A stretch of 33,606 nucleotides of DNA from Candidatus Taylorbacteria bacterium RIFCSPHIGHO2_01_FULL_51_15 (GTDB taxonomy: Bacteria > Patescibacteriota > Minisyncoccia > Phycocordibacterales > UBA10002): contig MHRI01000009.1 in assembly GCA_001820935.1 (NCBI GenBank), forward strand, positions 1-33,606, written 5' to 3'. A model generated the notes under the pieces. That model was not told the DNA's origin. It made no database searches and saw nothing but the letters and a program-made list of their open reading frames with translations. Each line of letters opens with the position of its first letter. Position 1 is the stretch's first letter. This document shows, piece by piece, positions 262 to 30,011 of this stretch. The position numbers and the translations under genes are program-made.

Positions 262-687
262 ATGTACAGTGAAAAGGTATTCGAAGAGAGCGTCGCGCTT
301 CTGCGCATCGCGCTCGGCATTATTTTCTTCTGGTTCGGCGCGCTAAAGCTCGCGGGTTTTAATCCGGTCTACGATATTGTGTACGCGAGTTTCCCGTTTC
401 TCGCGGACGGGGTGGGGAACCTCTTTCTTGGAGGGTTCGAGGCGCTCATCGGGTTGGCGCTCATCTCCAATGCGTTTGCTAAAACGACGCACCTTATCCT
501 GATCTTCCATCTTCTCGGGACATTTACGGTCTTCATCACCGCTCCGGAGATTATGTTCGATCCACAATTTCCATTTCTGACGCTCGCGGGGGAATTCGTC
601 GTGAAGAATCTTTCGCTTGCTATGGGCGGCATCGTGGTTATCCTCTATCATATGCGCCACCCGCGGCTCTCCAAAGGGTGGATATAA
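262..687 (+). CDS. DoxX-like small four-TM membrane protein
   Basis: 141 aa ORF with about four hydrophobic segments; LLRIALGIIFFWFGALKL resembles DoxX-family N-termini. Confidence 0.6.
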   Translation: MYSEKVFEESVALLRIALGIIFFWFGALKLAGFNPVYDIVYASFPFLADGVGNLFLGGFEALIGLALISNAFAKTTHLILIFHLLGTFTVFITAPEIMFDPQFPFLTLAGEFVVKNLSLAMGGIVVILYHMRHPRLSKGWI

Positions 688-696
688 TAATTCATC

Positions 697-736
697 TTTT
701 AGCAAAGTACCCACGGCCGTGGGTACTTTGCTAAAA
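697..736. repeat. 40-nt perfect palindrome (left boundary of the PaaX/Cas2-like cassette)
   Basis: TTTTAGCAAAGTACCCACGGCCGTGGGTACTTTGCTAAAA equals its own reverse complement. Confidence 0.97.
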
Positions 737-742
737 CAGTCA

Positions 743-1345
743 ATGGATATCAGAGCCCGAAATTTAAAAGTGAGGAGAAAAAGAAAGTCCTTGGTCGGCC
801 CGGTTCAAAAGAAAATACTACTGCTTCTTCTTGGCGGGTTTGTCCTCTCGTGTACTCGTTCCGTAAAAAAGCAGTGGCGCATAGTTAAAGGTATACAGGA
901 AAGTTGGAGGGATATATCACGGCAGGCTGCAGAACGCGCTGTCAGCGCATTGTACGAGTCTAAGCTTTTGGAGGCGAAAGAAGGCAAAGATGGCACGATC
1001 ACGCTTATCTTGAACGAAGACGGCAAGAGACGAGCACTTACCTACCATATTCGCTACACGAAAATTAAACCAACGGGATTCTGGGATAAAAAATGGCGCA
1101 TCATTATGTACGATATACCCGAACACGAGAAGGGGATCCGCGACGCTTTTCGGGATCACCTGACACAACTTGGCATACGCAAACTTCAGCATTCAGCGGG
1201 AATCTACCCATTTGACTGCAAGAACGAAGTCGATTTCTTCATTGAATTATTGGATATACGCAAACATGTCCGCTTTATCGCTGCCGATTCTATAGACGAC
1301 GCAGCCTATTGGAAGCGCAAATTCAACCTCGATAGACATATTTAG
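743..1345 (+). CDS. PaaX-like protein: N-terminal winged-helix-like region plus C-terminal Cas2-like ferredoxin-fold domain
   Basis: ATG at 743 (MDIRARNLKVRRKRK...); C-terminal WRIIMYDIPEHEKGIRDAFRDHLTQLGIRKLQHSAGIYPF resembles the Cas2/PaaX-C pattern (YDIP...L..G....Q.S.). The ORF-track start at 617 overlaps the upstream gene and palindrome and is unlikely. Confidence 0.75.
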   Translation: MDIRARNLKVRRKRKSLVGPVQKKILLLLLGGFVLSCTRSVKKQWRIVKGIQESWRDISRQAAERAVSALYESKLLEAKEGKDGTITLILNEDGKRRALTYHIRYTKIKPTGFWDKKWRIIMYDIPEHEKGIRDAFRDHLTQLGIRKLQHSAGIYPFDCKNEVDFFIELLDIRKHVRFIAADSIDDAAYWKRKFNLDRHI

Positions 1346-1379
1346 CAAAGTACCCACGGCCGTGGGTACTTTGCTAAAT
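1340..1379. repeat. 40-nt perfect palindrome (right boundary; contains the TAG stop of the PaaX/Cas2-like gene)
   Basis: ATTTAGCAAAGTACCCACGGCCGTGGGTACTTTGCTAAAT; shares a 38-nt core with 697-736; stop TAG at 1343-1345. Confidence 0.97.
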
Positions 1380-1425: not shown

Positions 1426-1498
1426 GGGCGGTTAGCTCAGTTGGTAGAGCGCGTCGTTGACGTCGATGAGGTCAGAGGTTCGAACCCTCTACCGCCCA
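1426..1498 (+). tRNA. tRNA-Val (anticodon GAC)
   Basis: Acceptor GGGCGGT/ACCGCCC, anticodon arm CGTCG-TTGACGT-CGATG, T-arm AGAGG-TTCGAAC-CCTCT. Confidence 0.93.
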
Positions 1499-12329: not shown

Positions 12330-12456
12330 CAATTATTCTAATTTCTAATTGCTCTAATTATTCTAAGGAATGTACAAATCACCATTTCTGAATTGGTAAT
12401 TTGGTATTGGGGTCTCATTAGGTTAATTAGAGTAATTAGGTGAATTAGGTTAATTT
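12330..12456. repeat. Intergenic inverted-repeat element, family A (AATTAG arms), copy 1
   Basis: aattattctaatttctaattgctctaattattctaa...attaggttaattagagtaattaggtgaattaggttaatt. Confidence 0.85.
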
Positions 12457-12867: not shown

Positions 12868-15456
12868 ATGGCAGCGTCAGAACCAAAAGAAGCCACAAAA
12901 CGGGGCGTGATCGGGCGAAGCATCACGACCGAGATGAAGGAATCATATCTCGACTACGCGATGTCGGTCATTACCGCGCGCGCCCTTCCCGATGTGAGGG
13001 ATGGCCTCAAACCAGTGCATCGGCGCATTCTCTATGCGATGAACGGAATGGGACTTTCGGCATCGGCAAAGACCAGAAAATCGGCTACCGTAGTCGGAGA
13101 CGTACTCGGCAAGTATCACCCGCATGGCGACACTTCCGTCTACGACGCCATGGTTAAAATGGCGCAGACGTTTTCGTTCCGTTACCCGCTCGTTATCGGC
13201 CAAGGAAATTTTGGTTCGCAAGACGGTGACGCCGCTGCCGCGTACCGATATACCGAAGCAAAGATGTCGCGCATCGCCGGCGAGCTCCTTCGTGATATCG
13301 AAAAAGAGACGGTAGACTGGCGCCCGAACTACGACGGTACCCACAAAGAACCGGTAGTGCTTCCTGCCGCAGTACCCAATCTCTTGCTCAACGGAACCTT
13401 AGGTATCGCGGTTGGCATGGCGACCAATATCCCCCCGCATAACCTCCGTGAAGTGGTGGCGGCAACCGTTCACCTCATGGAGCACGAGGATGCCACGACC
13501 GAAGACCTCCTCCAGTTCGTCACAGGCCCCGATTTTCCCACCGGCGGTATCGTGTTCGGTTCGCAAGACCTTCGGCATGCCTACTCAAGCGGCAAAGGAG
13601 GCGTGGTAACTCGAGGTGTCGCGGAAATAGTCGAGAACAAATCGGGCCAGATGCAGATTATCATTACCTCAATACCATACCGCGTGAACAAGGCGGAGAT
13701 GATTATCCAAATAGCCAACCTCGTACGTGAGAAAAAAGTGGACGGTATCAAGGGACTCCGTGATGAATCAACAAGCGATGTGCGCGTCGTGATTGACCTC
13801 AAGCAGGGAAGCTTCCCCGAAAAAGTTCTCAATTTTCTCTACAAGCACACTCAGCTCGAAGAAACCTTCCATTTCAACACGGTCGCGCTCGTAAACGGCG
13901 TGCCGCAAACCCTCTCGCTTAAAGCCTTGCTTGAGCAGTTCATCATTCACCGCAAGGAAGTGGTGAAGCGCCGCACTGCTTTTGACTTGAAACAGGCGGA
14001 AGCGCGCGAACACATCCTTCTTGGTCTCAAGAAAGCGCTCGACCATATCGACGAGATCATCAAGCTCATTAAGAAATCAAAGGACGTGGACGAAGCACGG
14101 GCGGGGCTGCAGAAAGCCTTCAAGTTCTCCGAGATACAGGCACAGGCTATCCTCGATATGCGGCTCCAGAAGCTGTCGGGCCTCGAGCGCAAGAAGATCG
14201 AGGATGAGCTGATGGAAGTGCAGGCGCTTATCGCGGAACTCAAGTCCATTCTGGGAAGCACCAAGAAGATACTCGCTGTCATCAAAAAGGAGCTCCAGGA
14301 GATTGGCGAGAAGTATGGCGACGACCGCCGCACGAGAGTGATGAAGCACGGCGCCAAAGAATTCTCCGAAGAAGACCTTATTCCCGACACGGACGCGGTG
14401 CTTGTTCTTACCAAAGGAGGCTACATCAAACGCACCGATCCCGAAGAGTACCGCAAACAGCGCCGAGGGGGCGTCGGCGTGGTTGACCTTGATACAAAGG
14501 ACGAAGATTTCGTCACGCACGTCATCACCGGTACGACTCATAACGATTTCCTCTTTTTTACGGACAAAGGCAAGGCCTACCAAATTAAGATGTACGAGAT
14601 ACCGGAAGGGAAGCGCGCCACCAAAGGCAAGTCAATCATGAACTTCCTCTCGCTTGCCGCGGAGGAAAAAGTCACGTCCATCCTCCCGATGCCAAAATCG
14701 GTAAAGGCCGCCCTGGGGCTCTCGCTCCTCATGGTCACCCGAAACGGGATCGGCAAGAAGACTGCGGCGGCAAGCTTTCACGATGTGCGCAGGAGCGGAC
14801 TTCTTGCGATTAAGCTCAAGGAAGGAGACGAGCTCGTATCCGCGTCTTTCGTCGAGAAAGGCGACGAAGCCGTGCTTGTGACGAAGAAGGGGCAATCCAT
14901 TCGCTTTAAGGAGAGCGATATTCGGGAAATGGGACGGGGAGCGGGTGGAGTAAAGGCCATGCGCCTTAGCAAGGGCGATTCTATCGTGGGGACCGGCATT
15001 GTTCACCCCAACACCAAAACCTGGAGTGTGCACAAGGGCAAAAGTCGTAGCAATGGCGGCACTGATATTCAAAATAGCACCGAAGAAATGTCAGGTAGTT
15101 TTGGTGCGGTGGTAAATAAGACCCCCGCTTCCGCTAAAGGCTCCGGCGAGGCGACGCCTGAACTTCTCGTCATCATGCAGAACGGCTATGGCAAGAAAAC
15201 CAAGCTTAAGGAATACAAAACTCAAAAGCGCGGGGGCTCCGGCATCAAAACGGCCAAGATCACCCCAAAGACCGGTGAGCTTATCGCGGCTCACGTCGTC
15301 ACGTCTCCCGAGGAGGAAGTGGTCGCGATCTCGAAGAAAAGCCAAGTCATCCGCACGGGCGTGAATGAGATCGCATCCTTGGGCCGCCAGACGCAGGGGG
15401 TACGGATTATGAAATTGCGGGAAGGAGATTCTATTGCATCACTCACTTGTCTTTGA
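12868..15456 (+). CDS. gyrA: DNA gyrase subunit A
   Basis: [74 protein letters not shown]-terminal QRRGGVG and QKRGGSG repeats. Confidence 0.97.
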
Positions 15457-15488: not shown

Positions 15489-15548
15489 ACCCCCTCACTC
15501 GAAATTACCGAACAGAGGGGATGATATGATAATTTCGAGTGAGGGGGT
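15489..15548. terminator. Perfect 19-bp inverted repeat downstream of gyrA
   Basis: accccctcactcgaaatta ... taatttcgagtgagggggt, 22-nt loop. Confidence 0.7.
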
Positions 15549-17745: not shown

Positions 17746-18252
17746 ATGTTCCGACTTTCCCTCCTCCCATTTTTCGCACTCCTTGCTATACTTTATATAG
17801 CGACTCCGTACGTCGTTGTCGCGGGGGATATTCCAGCGGGGGAGAATACCTACGAAGACTCATACGTGCCGTGTGGGACGAAGGATGTTCAAACCTATCA
17901 TCCAGACACTAAAACGTACACGGGAAGCGCGGCAAGTCCCGAACCAGACGACATCGTGGATAATCCATGCGGATTTGGTGACGTGCTTGTACTCGCGCAG
18001 CGTCTCATCATGGGCTGGATCATTGCCGGAGTCACCTTCGCCACCATGGGCTTTGCCTACGCGGGGTACCTCTACATTACGGCCATGGGGTCGGAGGAAA
18101 AAGTTAGCCACGCGCATTCTATCTTTACCAAGACCACATGGGGATTTGTGTTCATGCTCTCCGCCTGGCTCATCGCCTATACGCTCGAAACCATCTTTCT
18201 TAAAGAAAGTTTCCGAGAGGAGCATTCATTTTTGGAAGGTGTGGATGACTAG
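17746..18252 (+). CDS. VirB2/TrbC-like two-TM pilin-type protein with secreted N-terminal region
   Basis: Signal peptide, then IIAGVTFATMGFAYAGYLYITAMGSEEKVSHAHSIFTKTTWGFVFMLSAWLIAYTLETIF. Confidence 0.65.
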   Translation: MFRLSLLPFFALLAILYIATPYVVVAGDIPAGENTYEDSYVPCGTKDVQTYHPDTKTYTGSAASPEPDDIVDNPCGFGDVLVLAQRLIMGWIIAGVTFATMGFAYAGYLYITAMGSEEKVSHAHSIFTKTTWGFVFMLSAWLIAYTLETIFLKESFREEHSFLEGVDD

Positions 18253-18263
18253 CGACTCCGTAT

Positions 18264-18306
18264 CTCCTCTCCCCCCTTGGAAAGGGGGAGACCAAGAGGG
18301 GGTTGA
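18264..18306. repeat. Palindromic CCCCCCTT-GG-AAAGGGGG element
   Basis: ctcctctccccccttggaaagggggagaccaagagggggttga. Confidence 0.75.
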
Positions 18307-18353
18307 ACACTCTTTTCTCAAGACTTCCCAACGATTTCAATCATAAGGCCACT

Positions 18354-18863
18354 ATGAACCAAACACCAAAGCATTCGTTCCTTTCCTCCTGCCGCAGATT
18401 TCTGGCCACCTCGTTTTTGCTCACCTTTTCGCTTTCTTTCGTTACAGCCTTAGCGTTCTCATTTCTCCCGACGGATGTCTTTGCATACGATCCACGTTGT
18501 AAAACCGATTTTAATTATTCTCAGTCGCATCAAGCGGAATGTCTTGTGGTGGCGAATGAGGACTGCTCCGACGGCAAACTCTGCAACCCGATCAAGTTCC
18601 CCAACCTAACCGCTTTCTTCCTTGAAATTGTGAATACCGTCGTGCAGTACGGCGCCCTGCTTATCGTATTTTTCATCGTCTTCGCCGGCTTTAAATTTGT
18701 CACCGCGCAGGGCAACAGCGAGAAAGTGAGTGAGGCGCGAAAAATGCTCACCTGGGTAATCGTCGGGGCATTCGTGCTCCTGGGCGTCTATGTCATTCGC
18801 GCCGCTATCTGCGGGACGATCGGCCAGCTTGGCATCACGAATGTGTGTGAGGAAGCGAAATGA
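18354..18863 (+). CDS. VirB2/TrbC-like two-TM pilin-type protein
   Basis: Signal peptide; ALLIVFFIVFAGFKFVTAQGNSEKVSEARKMLTWVIVGAFVLLGVYVIRAAICGTI. Confidence 0.75.
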   Translation: MNQTPKHSFLSSCRRFLATSFLLTFSLSFVTALAFSFLPTDVFAYDPRCKTDFNYSQSHQAECLVVANEDCSDGKLCNPIKFPNLTAFFLEIVNTVVQYGALLIVFFIVFAGFKFVTAQGNSEKVSEARKMLTWVIVGAFVLLGVYVIRAAICGTIGQLGITNVCEEAK

Positions 18864-18868
18864 TAGTA

Positions 18869-19000
18869 TTAGAATTATTCTAATTTCTAATTACCATAAT
18901 TATTCTGGGGAAATCCCAATTCCTAAATCCCTAATTGAAACTTGGATATTTTCGGCATTCTTTAGGTCAATTAGAATAATTAGATTAATTAGATCAATTT
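18869..19000. repeat. Intergenic inverted-repeat element, family A, copy 3
   Basis: Core gaaatcccaattcctaaatccctaattgaaacttggatatt..cggcatt.tttaggtcaattagaa matches copy 2 with about 3 mismatches in 67 nt. Confidence 0.9.
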
Positions 19001-19007
19001 TACTGTA

Positions 19008-19367
19008 ATGCTTCGTAATCTAAGCCCTGCGACAATGAAAACTATCTTCTATTTCAGCATTTTTCTTCCCCCTGTTCTTACTTCTGCCGACACGATCAAG
19101 ATTTTCAACACGCCAAACGAGGATCTCAACTTCACCTCATTTGCGAATAGGATCGGGGATATCGCGAATGTCATCATTCCGTTCCTTATCGGGGTGGCGT
19201 TTGTCGTGGTAATCTGGGGTATCTTCAAATATGTGATGAATGCGGGCGATTCGGAGAAGGTTGCGGAGGGACGTAAGGTAATCCTCTACGGCATCATCGC
19301 GCTTTTCCTCATGCTTTCTTTCTGGGGGTTTGTTATGATTGTGAGTAACAGTTTGTTCGGCGAGTAA
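19008..19367 (+). CDS. VirB2/TrbC-like two-TM pilin-type protein
   Basis: IANVIIPFLIGVAFVVVIWGIFKYVMNAGDSEKVAEGRKVILYGIIALFLMLSFWGFVMIV; alternative start at MKTIFYF. Confidence 0.78.
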   Translation: MLRNLSPATMKTIFYFSIFLPPVLTSADTIKIFNTPNEDLNFTSFANRIGDIANVIIPFLIGVAFVVVIWGIFKYVMNAGDSEKVAEGRKVILYGIIALFLMLSFWGFVMIVSNSLFGE

Positions 19368-19375
19368 GTACCAAT

Positions 19376-19413
19376 CCGCCTCCGCCAGTCGGCGGATGGC
19401 GGAGGCGGATGGC
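19376..19413. repeat. GC-rich inverted repeat TCCGCCTCCGCCA-GTCGGCGGA-TGGCGGAGGCGGA
   Basis: 13-bp perfect stem just upstream of the next CDS. Confidence 0.8.
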
Positions 19414-19423
19414 GGAGCGAATC

Positions 19424-19957
19424 ATGCGAATAGTTACGAATAAGATCAAAGATTTTTTCTGTCATTCCCGCATCAGCGGGAATCCAGCTGCTTTAGTGGT
19501 TGCATTGCTGTTTTTGTTCGGAATGGTTTTCGTACCTGCCGGTTATGTATCTGCGAGTCACCCTTGCGTTAACGAAGTATCAGACCCGAATGACGCTCAT
19601 CCCTGTGAACAGGTTGCGGGCTCACTTCCAAGTGACAACCTTACGGACGCAGGGGATAATAACGGCGAAATCACCAGCATACAGGGGCTCCTTTCACGGA
19701 TTAACGCCCTCCTCAACACTATTGTCCCGTTTATTGTGGGGCTCGCAGTCTTCGTCATTATATGGGGGGTCTTCCAATATGTGACGAGAGCCGGAGACGA
19801 GGAAAAACGCGCCGAGGCGAAGCTCTTTGTCGTCTGGGGCGTGGTGTTTGTCTTTATCATGGTGTCAATCTGGGGGCTCGTGAACATTCTTGTGAATACT
19901 TTCGAGCTACGGAAGAGTCCCGTACCGGTCGGGTCAGTGTTTCCTAGTAGCGAGTAA
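19424..19957 (+). CDS. VirB2/TrbC-like two-TM pilin-type protein
   Basis: INALLNTIVPFIVGLAVFVIIWGVFQYVTRAGDEEKRAEAKLFVVWGVVFVFIMVSIWGLVNILVNTFEL; ORF-track start 19409 lies within or next to the GC-rich repeat. Confidence 0.78.
   Translation: MRIVTNKIKDFFCHSRISGNPAALVVALLFLFGMVFVPAGYVSASHPCVNEVSDPNDAHPCEQVAGSLPSDNLTDAGDNNGEITSIQGLLSRINALLNTIVPFIVGLAVFVIIWGVFQYVTRAGDEEKRAEAKLFVVWGVVFVFIMVSIWGLVNILVNTFELRKSPVPVGSVFPSSE
19464..19483. repeat. dRS3-like ATTCCC-N8-GGGAAT element in frame in a pilin-like CDS
   Basis: attcccgcatcagcgggaat, translated within CHSRISGNPA. Confidence 0.8.
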
Positions 19958-19965
19958 TTTAAGAG

Positions 19966-20035
19966 ATGAAGGAAATGAAATATGGACCATGGACTATGAA
20001 ATATGAACTATGAACTATGGACTATGAAATATGGG
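19966..20035. repeat. Family C low-complexity repeat (ATGAACTATGGACTATGAAATATG)
   Basis: gatgaaggaaatgaaatatggaccatggactatgaaatatgaactatgaactatggactatgaaatatggg. Confidence 0.85.
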
Positions 20036-20164
20036 TGTATGGTAAACAGCCACGTCCTCGCAGTGAGGGTTGTTTCTCCCTTAGTAAAGGGAGCACTGCC
20101 TTCTTAGGCAGGAGGGATGTTTCCCCCAAGATAACGCAAGAAATTTAACTCTAACTAAACAACC

Positions 20165-20509
20165 ATGACCATTTCCGGATTTCTCGATCAAGTGCGCGGA
20201 GTTATTGACGCTATTGTCCCCTTCATCATCGGACTCGCGGTCTTTGTGGTGATCTGGGGCATCCTGCGCTACGTCACGCACGCCGCGGATGAAGAGAAGC
20301 GCGCTGAAGCGAGACAGTACATTATCTACGGGATTATCGGTGTCTTTTTCATGCTCTCTATCTGGGGATTTGTGAACATCCTCTACAACACCTTTGATCT
20401 CGATAGGAACATCAGCCCAGGTCAAATTCCGGAGGTTCCACAGCTTACAGGGAGTGATACTGAAAGCGATTGTGATTGGAATCTCGATGGCGAGAATGAC
20501 TGCGAGTAA
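20165..20509 (+). CDS. VirB2/TrbC-like two-TM pilin-type protein with acidic C-terminal tail
   Basis: VIDAIVPFIIGLAVFVVIWGILRYVTHAADEEKRAEARQYIIYGIIGVFFMLSIWGFVNILYNTFDL. Confidence 0.78.
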   Translation: MTISGFLDQVRGVIDAIVPFIIGLAVFVVIWGILRYVTHAADEEKRAEARQYIIYGIIGVFFMLSIWGFVNILYNTFDLDRNISPGQIPEVPQLTGSDTESDCDWNLDGENDCE

Positions 20510-20532
20510 GACTTCCTTATGGGACTTTTAAC

Positions 20533-20880
20533 ATGATTACTACCTTCAAGAACTATTTGGCAAGGGGGAGTGCCGTATTTCTCCTAAGCGCTCCGCTCCG
20601 CCTGTTCGCGCAGCTGGAAAATCCGCCTGAAAACGTTACCGAGCTCCTTAACGACATCAGCACCTATATCCTGAACCCCATCATCTTCACGCTCTTTACG
20701 GCCGCGTTCGTCGTCTTTATCTGGGGGCTTGTTCAGTTCGTGGCACATCTCGACAACGAGGAGGCCCGCGATACCGGCGGCAAGCACATGCTCTGGGGGA
20801 TCATCGGAATGGCGATCATGGCAGGAGTCGTCGGTATCGTGGCGATCATCCAAAACACCATCGCGCAGATTGGAGGGTGA
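20533..20880 (+). CDS. VirB2/TrbC-like two-TM pilin-type protein (more divergent paralog)
   Basis: ILNPIIFTLFTAAFVVFIWGLVQFVAHLDNEEARDTGGKHMLWGIIGMAIMAGVVGIVAIIQNTI. Confidence 0.72.
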   Translation: MITTFKNYLARGSAVFLLSAPLRLFAQLENPPENVTELLNDISTYILNPIIFTLFTAAFVVFIWGLVQFVAHLDNEEARDTGGKHMLWGIIGMAIMAGVVGIVAIIQNTIAQIGG

Positions 20881-21076
20881 AGAGATGAATTATGAAGTGA
20901 GAGGGACCATGAAATCATGAAATATGGTACATTTTCCATGGTCCATATTCCATTTTCTTGGCTGGGGATAACCGACCATTTGCGGTCTGTACCCATAGGT
21001 ATATACTTACAAGGAAATTAACATATATAAAAGGTCGCTTCCTTGATTTTATTTATTAGCTTTTATTAATTTCTAT

Positions 21077-21475
21077 ATGAAGAAATTTGCCATTGCGGCA
21101 TCCTCGTATCTTCTCCCTATCGCTGCGTTTGCAGGTCAAGTGGATACCGGTTCGGACAACATTGCGGACCTTATCACGCAGGTCAACCGGGTGATTAACG
21201 CCATCATCCCATTCATCGTCGGGCTCGCGGTCCTTATCATCATCTGGGGCGTGTTCAACTACATCGCGGGTGCCGGAGACGAAGAGAAACGCGCGCAGGC
21301 CAAGCAATACATCGTCTGGGGTGTCGTTGGAGTCTTTATCATGCTCTCCATCTGGGGACTTGTGAACGTACTCGTTAATAGCTTCGAACTTCGAAAGACG
21401 CCACTTGGTGAAGAACAGTTCCCGAACTTTGACGAAACTATTAATGACCCTCTCGCTCCAGCACGCGACTACTAG
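21077..21475 (+). CDS. VirB2/TrbC-like two-TM pilin-type protein
   Basis: INAIIPFIVGLAVLIIIWGVFNYIAGAGDEEKRAQAKQYIVWGVVGVFIMLSIWGLVNVLVNSFEL. Confidence 0.78.
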   Translation: MKKFAIAASSYLLPIAAFAGQVDTGSDNIADLITQVNRVINAIIPFIVGLAVLIIIWGVFNYIAGAGDEEKRAQAKQYIVWGVVGVFIMLSIWGLVNVLVNSFELRKTPLGEEQFPNFDETINDPLAPARDY

Positions 21476-29716: not shown

Positions 29717-29808
29717 AGAATTTTACTCCTTCCACACCACCGCCTCTTGCAGTTGTTCTATGCAAGGTTCTACCAGTTATTCCCATCTCTAGTTCACGTC
29801 ATTCGGTA

Positions 29809-29844
29809 TTTAGCAATAGTGTACGAACGTACACTATTGCTAAA
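29809..29844. repeat. Solo near-perfect palindrome sharing ends with the 697/1340 palindromes
   Basis: TTTAGCAATAGTGTACG-AA-CGTACACTATTGCTAAA. Confidence 0.92.
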
Positions 29845-30011
29845 CCCCGAAGGGAGCTGTCCCGCATAAAGCAGGATATGTGTGAATACTGACGAAAGAC
29901 AGTATCACCCCAGCACCAAAGGATAAACGGGCACGCGCTTCGCCCTGGGATGGTGTGGGGTTGTATTTCACATTCCGCTCTAAAACATCGCGGGTGAAAT
30001 ACAAAAAAAGA

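Follow-up and report, generated by a model that had tools for sequence, protein, structure and literature searches.

A winged-helix/Cas2-like protein gene and its cognate perfect palindromes in Patescibacteria: a possible analogue of REP/RAYT systems

The palindrome-bounded cassette

The window, which comprises 33,606 nucleotides of contig MHRI01000009.1 from Candidatus Taylorbacteria bacterium RIFCSPHIGHO2_01_FULL_51_15 (genome G000), contains a gene (743..1345, plus strand) that lies between two palindromes. The gene encodes a 200-amino-acid protein with an N-terminal winged helix and a C-terminal Cas2-like ferredoxin domain, a combination for which we use the name PXC. The left terminal palindrome (697..736) has 20-nucleotide arms around an axis at 716/717, with an outer TTTAGCA motif and a ACGGCCGT centre, and an identical 38-nucleotide core is found in the right terminal palindrome (1340..1379). 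Each is 40 nucleotides long, with arms that are 100% complementary and have no spacer between them. The ATG at 743 begins 6 nucleotides 3' of the left palindrome, the TAG stop codon (1343-1345) is included in the right one, and the whole unit spans 683 bp. This layout had been proposed in a sequence-only reading of the window, and its palindromes, shared core, spacing and unit length were all verified. The cassette is preceded by a gene for a DoxX/DUF417-like membrane protein (262..687, plus strand), which served as a marker for finding the orthologous site in relatives, and is followed by tRNA-Val(GAC) (1426..1498, plus strand).

When folded as DNA, the left palindrome gives a hairpin of 18 bp (-18.4 kcal/mol, z -8.5). 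When as many as three mismatches are allowed, no further copy of the 38-nucleotide core is found in the window, and none is expected from 100 shuffles of it. The palindromes match no Rfam family, and a weak test revealed neither a terminator nor a sigma-70-like promoter at them.

The sequence-only reading overlooked a third, related palindrome of a second family (29802..29851; core TTTAGCAATAGTGTACG..CGTACACTATTGCTAAA at 29809-29844), which is solo, with no PXC gene nearby, as well as additional TTAGCAA..TTGCTAA palindromes elsewhere in the genome. The centre of this third palindrome is not palindromic (ACGAACGT), and its family occurs three more times in the genome (C3:20123, C9:34549 and C17:25242). 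A related arm, AATAGTGTACGGCCG, is borne by a PXC gene in G002 (L024), and by none in G000 as sampled.

Features of the PXC protein

PaaX_M is the only Pfam family that PXC matches (2e-19, 69.9 bits, cut-off 24, residues 114-184). The score against the full-length PaaX equivalog TIGR02277 is far below its cut-off (19 bits versus 264.55), and that against the Cas2 equivalog TIGR01573 is just below (21.2 bits versus 24.5). No transposase, HUH or recombinase domain was recognised in the protein. A profile of homologues weakly matches MarR-type winged helices in its N-terminal part and, also weakly, Cas2 3exc in its C-terminal part.

An AlphaFold2 model built with 79 sequences (pLDDT 90) predicts a winged helix at about residues 20-101 and a ferredoxin-like domain at about 114-184. 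A structural comparison with Cas2 and PaaX had been proposed in the sequence-only reading, and the model resembles both: the top Foldseek matches are Cas2 structures 3exc and 5zyf, and VapD 3ui3 and E. coli PaaX 8a39 are also found. None of these matches has E <0.001, and probabilities are near 1.0 for Cas2 and PaaX. Of these structures, 3exc is the RNase SSO8090 and 3ui3 is the VapD endoribonuclease. Asp124, at the end of beta strand 1, aligns with the catalytic Asp of 3exc and is invariant in alignments of 44 and 79 sequences, whereas E. coli PaaX aligned with PXC lacks an Asp at this position. Also, E. coli paaX has a long palindrome on neither side. Among PXC pairs (four close and one more distant), omega is 0.07-0.10, and PXC is thus evolving under purifying selection.

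Distribution of PXC genes and flanking palindromes

PXC relatives are present in 60 of the 148 genomes searched within the order, with no more than 12 per genome, and in 94 of 290 genomes across the phylum. A scan of the sequence collection returned 539 confirmed relatives when a 15-sequence PXC alignment was the query, and none when the window PXC was used alone. The 80 relatives listed of these 539 come from Patescibacteria/Parcubacteria MAGs, and from many lineages where the record names one. The genomes are drafts, mostly MAGs, and were covered as sequence stretches and by pattern searches. A search of IMG/VR for palindromes of the ACGGCCGT type returned no exact match. A putative viral contig in that collection (L274, IMGVR_UViG_3300031949_000100) encodes one distant PXC relative (36% identity), which has no palindromes.

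PXC genes tend to have a copy of their own palindrome type at each end. When about 250 bp to either side of the gene was examined, 44 of 91 PXC homologues had matching palindromes on both flanks, in comparison with 0 of 147 control ORFs from the same loci. In a second set of 81 genes from named genomes, which overlaps the first, 25 have such a pair and 45 have at least one strong palindrome, and the pair is present in 5 of 28 PXC genes of a phylum-wide sample taken mostly outside the order. The same arrangement occurs in independent studies and assemblies. The expectation from the sequence-only reading that homologues are flanked by matching palindromes holds, with the correction that about half of PXC genes have no detectable pair.

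Palindromes vary in sequence and retain their symmetry

The same reading anticipated that the palindromes would covary with the protein, and they do: protein identity correlates with palindrome similarity (Mantel r 0.441), and none of 2000 permutations reached this value. Palindrome centres differ among PXC homologues, with CGGCCG, CGATCG, GCTATAGC and GCGATAGC among the variants. In palindromes of the genus, TTTAGCA recurs as the outer motif and ACGGCCGT as the centre, and the roughly seven bases that separate them are variable. The 75 palindromes in 13 genomes of the genus comprise 49 distinct arms, but 45 have perfect inner arms, and symmetry extends outside TTTAGCA by a mean of 1.01 bp, versus 0.46 bp expected. 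Thus, palindromic character is kept while the sequence changes. At two orthologous sites (L139/L164 and L129/L143), palindromes occupying the same place differ symmetrically in their arms or centre.

In one cassette palindrome of G008, the inner half is of the resident type (AAACACTC) and the outer half (ATTTGCTC) corresponds to the commonest solo type in that genome. This single case looks like a change of specificity caught midway. Recombination at palindrome centres was considered as a general origin of the pairs and was rejected: the inner and outer halves of 43 pairs are equally diverged (78 versus 67 mismatches), and the cases that favour it are single hybrids. We therefore claim no general exchange at centres.

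In G000, two further hybrid palindromes surround a different small gene of about 115 codons (L142:2127-2771, on C20), and a stretch of about 40 bp that precedes each of them is duplicated. The small gene may be cargo moved between palindromes. The possibility that it is a degenerate PXC gene was rejected, as another gene lies there.

Occupied, solo and empty sites

The comparison within the genus involved 13 genomes, each from a different species, so the positions of insertion boundaries within spacers are only approximate at the base level. At syntenic sites, the palindrome-PXC-palindrome unit is present in some genomes and absent in others. The site between the DoxX-like gene and tRNA-Val is occupied by the whole unit in G000, whereas in G002 and G008 it has a solo palindrome whose arm sequence differs from that in the window. 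A solo palindrome also precedes tRNA-Val in G003 and G001, and none was found near this site in G009 or G005. The window cassette is an extra PXC copy in G000, and it is 72% identical to the copy located between proS and mreB in G001.

The proS-mreB site has a PXC gene in 10 of the 13 genomes, in both orientations; in the tenth of these, G010, it is a split pseudogene that lacks palindromes. In three genomes, the PXC gene at this site belongs to a distant subfamily and is oriented the other way, and G002 and G009 have neither PXC nor a palindrome. The flanking DNA of five proS-mreB copies is 75-80% identical on the left and about 70% identical on the right, and their palindromes nonetheless differ. 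Base-level insertion boundaries were sought here and abandoned, because the spacers are too diverged. Together, the occupied and empty proS-mreB and DoxX sites imply that PXC genes are gained and lost at preferred sites, yet are also inherited in place. A search of relatives for empty sites, as the sequence-only reading recommended, was therefore productive, and the proposal of a palindrome-mobilised element is partly supported, in modified form: the cassette is present or absent at given sites, but PXC often stays in place, as at proS-mreB, and the palindromes are the more mobile part.

After proS in G006 (L344), there is a different insertion with inverted-repeat ends GGTAATTAGTGGGAAAAGTAACC, which seemingly encodes part of an IS-type protein, hinting that the proS spacer is an insertion hot spot.

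Solo palindromes and insertions within genes

Genomes of the genus contain from 0 to 19 palindromes of the form TTTAGCA..TGCTAAA, in comparison with 0-1 for the reversed control. Solo copies are found between genes, over stop codons, at 3' ends of genes, near tRNAs and inside genes. Solo copies identical to palindromes of a cassette in the same genome are found on C32 (the window type) and at C3:36705 (the type of the C34 cassette). Among 148 solo palindromes, 16 share at least 14 of 16 half-arm bases with a cassette of the same genome, versus 3.3 expected from other genomes, and the mean match to the genome's own cassettes is 8.09, which is 3.7 standard deviations higher than that of label permutations (7.59, sd 0.137). 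This matching covers the sampled stretches of each genome. Within that sample, the majority of solo palindromes have no matching cassette in the genome that carries them, and they may therefore derive from other sources.

Some genes have acquired solo palindromes as in-frame insertions. Palindromes of 36-40 bp occur in frame inside the conserved genes for a PfkB-like kinase, TruB, TsaD and NifS. The kinase gene has one in G003 and G011, and none in G002, G005 or G001. In this cleanest case, the gene of G003 is longer than that of G002 by exactly 36 nucleotides, the length of the palindrome, and no target-site duplication is therefore evident; elsewhere, the flanks are too diverged for comparison at the base level. 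In G008, a decayed palindrome of another type is located in the same loop. In nifS, three palindrome types are represented among G008, G001 and G010, whereas G007 and G009 have no palindrome there; tsaD has one in G008 only. In stretches from genomes with PXC, 20 perfect palindromes and 5 with GATA/GACC-type centres were counted in 400 kb, versus 5 in 334 kb from genomes without it; the genus sample deliberately avoided known palindromes, and the greater density in PXC genomes is only suggestive.

Some solo palindromes are located within longer repeats. In G010, one lies midway in a MITE-like repeat of about 253 bp that is present at least twice (L149:2472 and L150:2542). In G007, palindromes with TTTAGCATTAAG arms (L156, L157 and L158) share 60-80 bp of flanking sequence with a second inverted repeat (ACACTATC..GATAGTGT), which suggests that they belong to a larger composite element.

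Comparison with known systems

Short palindromic repeats in bacterial genes and spacers have long been known. In the openly accessible papers that we searched, we found no link between PaaX/Cas2-like proteins and palindromes. Of the systems compared, REP/RAYT (TnpAREP, REPtron) is the closest, as the sequence-only reading had suggested. A RAYT is a single palindrome-flanked gene with dispersed, cognate short palindromes of a protein-specific type (PMC3116915, PMC8266576), and the protein is mostly inherited vertically, rarely copied and not self-mobile, both for RAYT (PMC3116915) and for TnpAREP (PMC8266576). Likewise, PXC has palindromes on both sides and cognate copies dispersed in the genome, the palindrome type is tied to the protein, and the gene is mostly inherited vertically and not self-mobile. 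However, PXC combines a winged helix with a Cas2-like domain, whereas RAYT is an HUH (Y1) nuclease related to IS200/IS605 TnpA. PXC palindromes also lack the conserved GTAG foot: those of the window begin with TTTTAGCA/ATTTAGCA, and most of the palindromes listed lack GTAG; CGTC was the other foot tag considered. Moreover, they are perfect, 36-50 bp long and low in copy number (0-19 per genome for the genus motif), several are in frame within genes, and several PXC paralogues can occur in one genome.

Rickettsia palindromic elements (RPEs) are short palindromes that are tolerated in frame within conserved protein genes, according to PMC10969869, which cites Ogata 2000 and 2002. PXC palindromes are similarly inserted in frame in the PfkB, TruB, NifS and TsaD genes, with empty orthologues for PfkB, NifS and TsaD. 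By description rather than by sequence, they differ in length (36-40 bp, versus about 150 bp for the known RPE families), and they have a candidate cognate protein gene between two copies.

PaaX repressors (PF20803; E. coli PaaX, PDB 8a39) share with PXC a winged helix followed by a Cas2-like domain and a WDxKW motif, but PXC lacks the C-terminal PaaX part and linkage to phenylacetate genes, keeps Asp at the Cas2 catalytic position and has palindromes at both gene ends. Cas2 and VapD have the same fold, and the beta1-alpha1 region aligns with the catalytic Asp of 3exc. In contrast to these proteins, PXC includes a fused winged helix, its neighbours are not cas genes, and it scores below the curated Cas2 cut-off. 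IS200/IS605 elements resemble the PXC unit in being single genes with hairpin-bearing ends, and possibly in inserting without target duplication, none being evident in the PfkB case, but the PXC unit has no Y1/HUH transposase, has perfect palindromes at both ends and is mostly immobile as a whole.

Interpretation and alternatives

PXC and its palindromes look like an undescribed selfish or semi-domesticated DNA system. The reading that we favour, as reasonably probable though far from secure, is that the cassette belongs to a Patescibacteria-wide system of PXC proteins and cognate perfect palindromes of 36-50 bp, analogous to RAYT/REP and built around an unrelated protein. We infer that PXC mobilises the palindromes. 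Its winged helix would read the palindrome arms, as duplex DNA or as a cruciform or single-stranded hairpin, and the Cas2-like domain would cleave the palindromes or act as a scaffold for host enzymes that do so. Palindromes might then be copied in trans to new places or used as templates, and resident palindromes might be rewritten to the type of the resident PXC. Occasionally, a whole cassette would enter a new site, as at the DoxX-tRNA-Val site of the window. As the start codon lies 6 nucleotides beyond the left palindrome, PXC bound there would probably also repress its own gene. Tentatively and with considerable doubt, we make the more specific claim that PXC proteins represent a new type of enzyme that mobilises DNA. 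Such an enzyme would be a nuclease of winged-helix/Cas2 fold that recognises, cuts and copies perfect palindromes, disseminates solo copies in trans and converts resident palindromes to its own specificity.

The frequent synteny of PXC counts against a mobilising system, and an ordinary regulator would also show it. The main rival is that PXC is an autoregulated PaaX-type transcription factor whose palindromes are co-evolving operators, at the ends of its gene and in a dispersed regulon. The MarR-like similarity of the winged helix, the PaaX_M match, the abutment of the left palindrome on the start codon, the purifying selection and the covariation of palindromes with the protein are all compatible with such a regulator. 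It accounts for covariation and synteny, but not for solo palindromes that are in-frame insertions inside coding genes or are located at 3' ends and over stop codons, nor for a 3' copy over the PXC stop codon, nor for the excess of palindrome types (the 75 palindromes of 13 genomes have 49 arm sequences, versus at most 8 PXC copies per genome). E. coli paaX lacks such flanks and, as a weaker point, the cassette has no recognisable sigma-70-like promoter. The sequence-only reading had named autoregulation as its alternative and considered an operator in a stop codon odd; this oddity does count against the alternative, which we regard as unlikely while retaining it as the main rival.

It is quite improbable that some unrelated host or phage activity spreads the palindromes and that PXC is a silencer or passenger that has picked up a palindrome on either side. 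Palindrome families outnumber PXC genes per genome, a few long palindromes occur in some genomes without PXC, and the gene between the two hybrid palindromes of G000 is not PXC, but the type of palindrome varies with the sequence of PXC, and solo copies are closer to the resident PXC type than to foreign types. We give slightly less weight still to the idea that the palindromes function as RNA hairpins, with PXC as a Cas2/VapD-like ribonuclease that cleaves or caps its own and other mRNAs in a post-transcriptional or toxin-like circuit. The structural matches to RNase SSO8090 (3exc) and the VapD endoribonuclease (3ui3), the invariant Asp and stems that stay perfect as arm sequences change would all suit this idea. 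Yet the palindromes are symmetric and unoriented relative to genes, the winged helix suggests DNA, and palindrome gain by insertion requires a process at the DNA level in any case. Assembly artefact or chance is a negligible explanation, even with draft assemblies that are mostly MAGs and some cassettes near contig ends, given that no control ORF (0 of 147) has a pair, independent studies and assemblies agree, and syntenic orthologues carry divergent palindromes.

The mechanism by which REP sequences are disseminated has been described as poorly understood (PMC8266576). One phylum holds dozens of protein-palindrome pairs whose specificities covary, together with sites that are empty and insertions that are in frame, so the spread of palindromes and their coexistence with essential genes are directly testable. 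Also, PXC has the Cas2 fold and retains the catalytic Asp outside CRISPR systems, which bears on the origin of Cas2 and PaaX. If PXC does mobilise palindromes, the system would be a counterpart of REP/RAYT whose protein does not belong to the HUH superfamily, and the Cas2 fold would have been put to use independently in mobile DNA.

Other repeats in the window

The window contains repeats of other kinds. Two imperfect, intergenic inverted repeats (12345-12439 and 18886-18993) have a common TAATTAGA-like unit and constitute another repeat family of the genome. A perfect 19-nucleotide inverted repeat with a 22-nucleotide loop (15489-15548) directly follows a gyrA-like ORF (12868-15456). About six consecutive ORFs for small membrane proteins (17746-21475) look mutually similar, with a PFI.G.A..V.IWG-like motif, and probably form a tandemly duplicated family.
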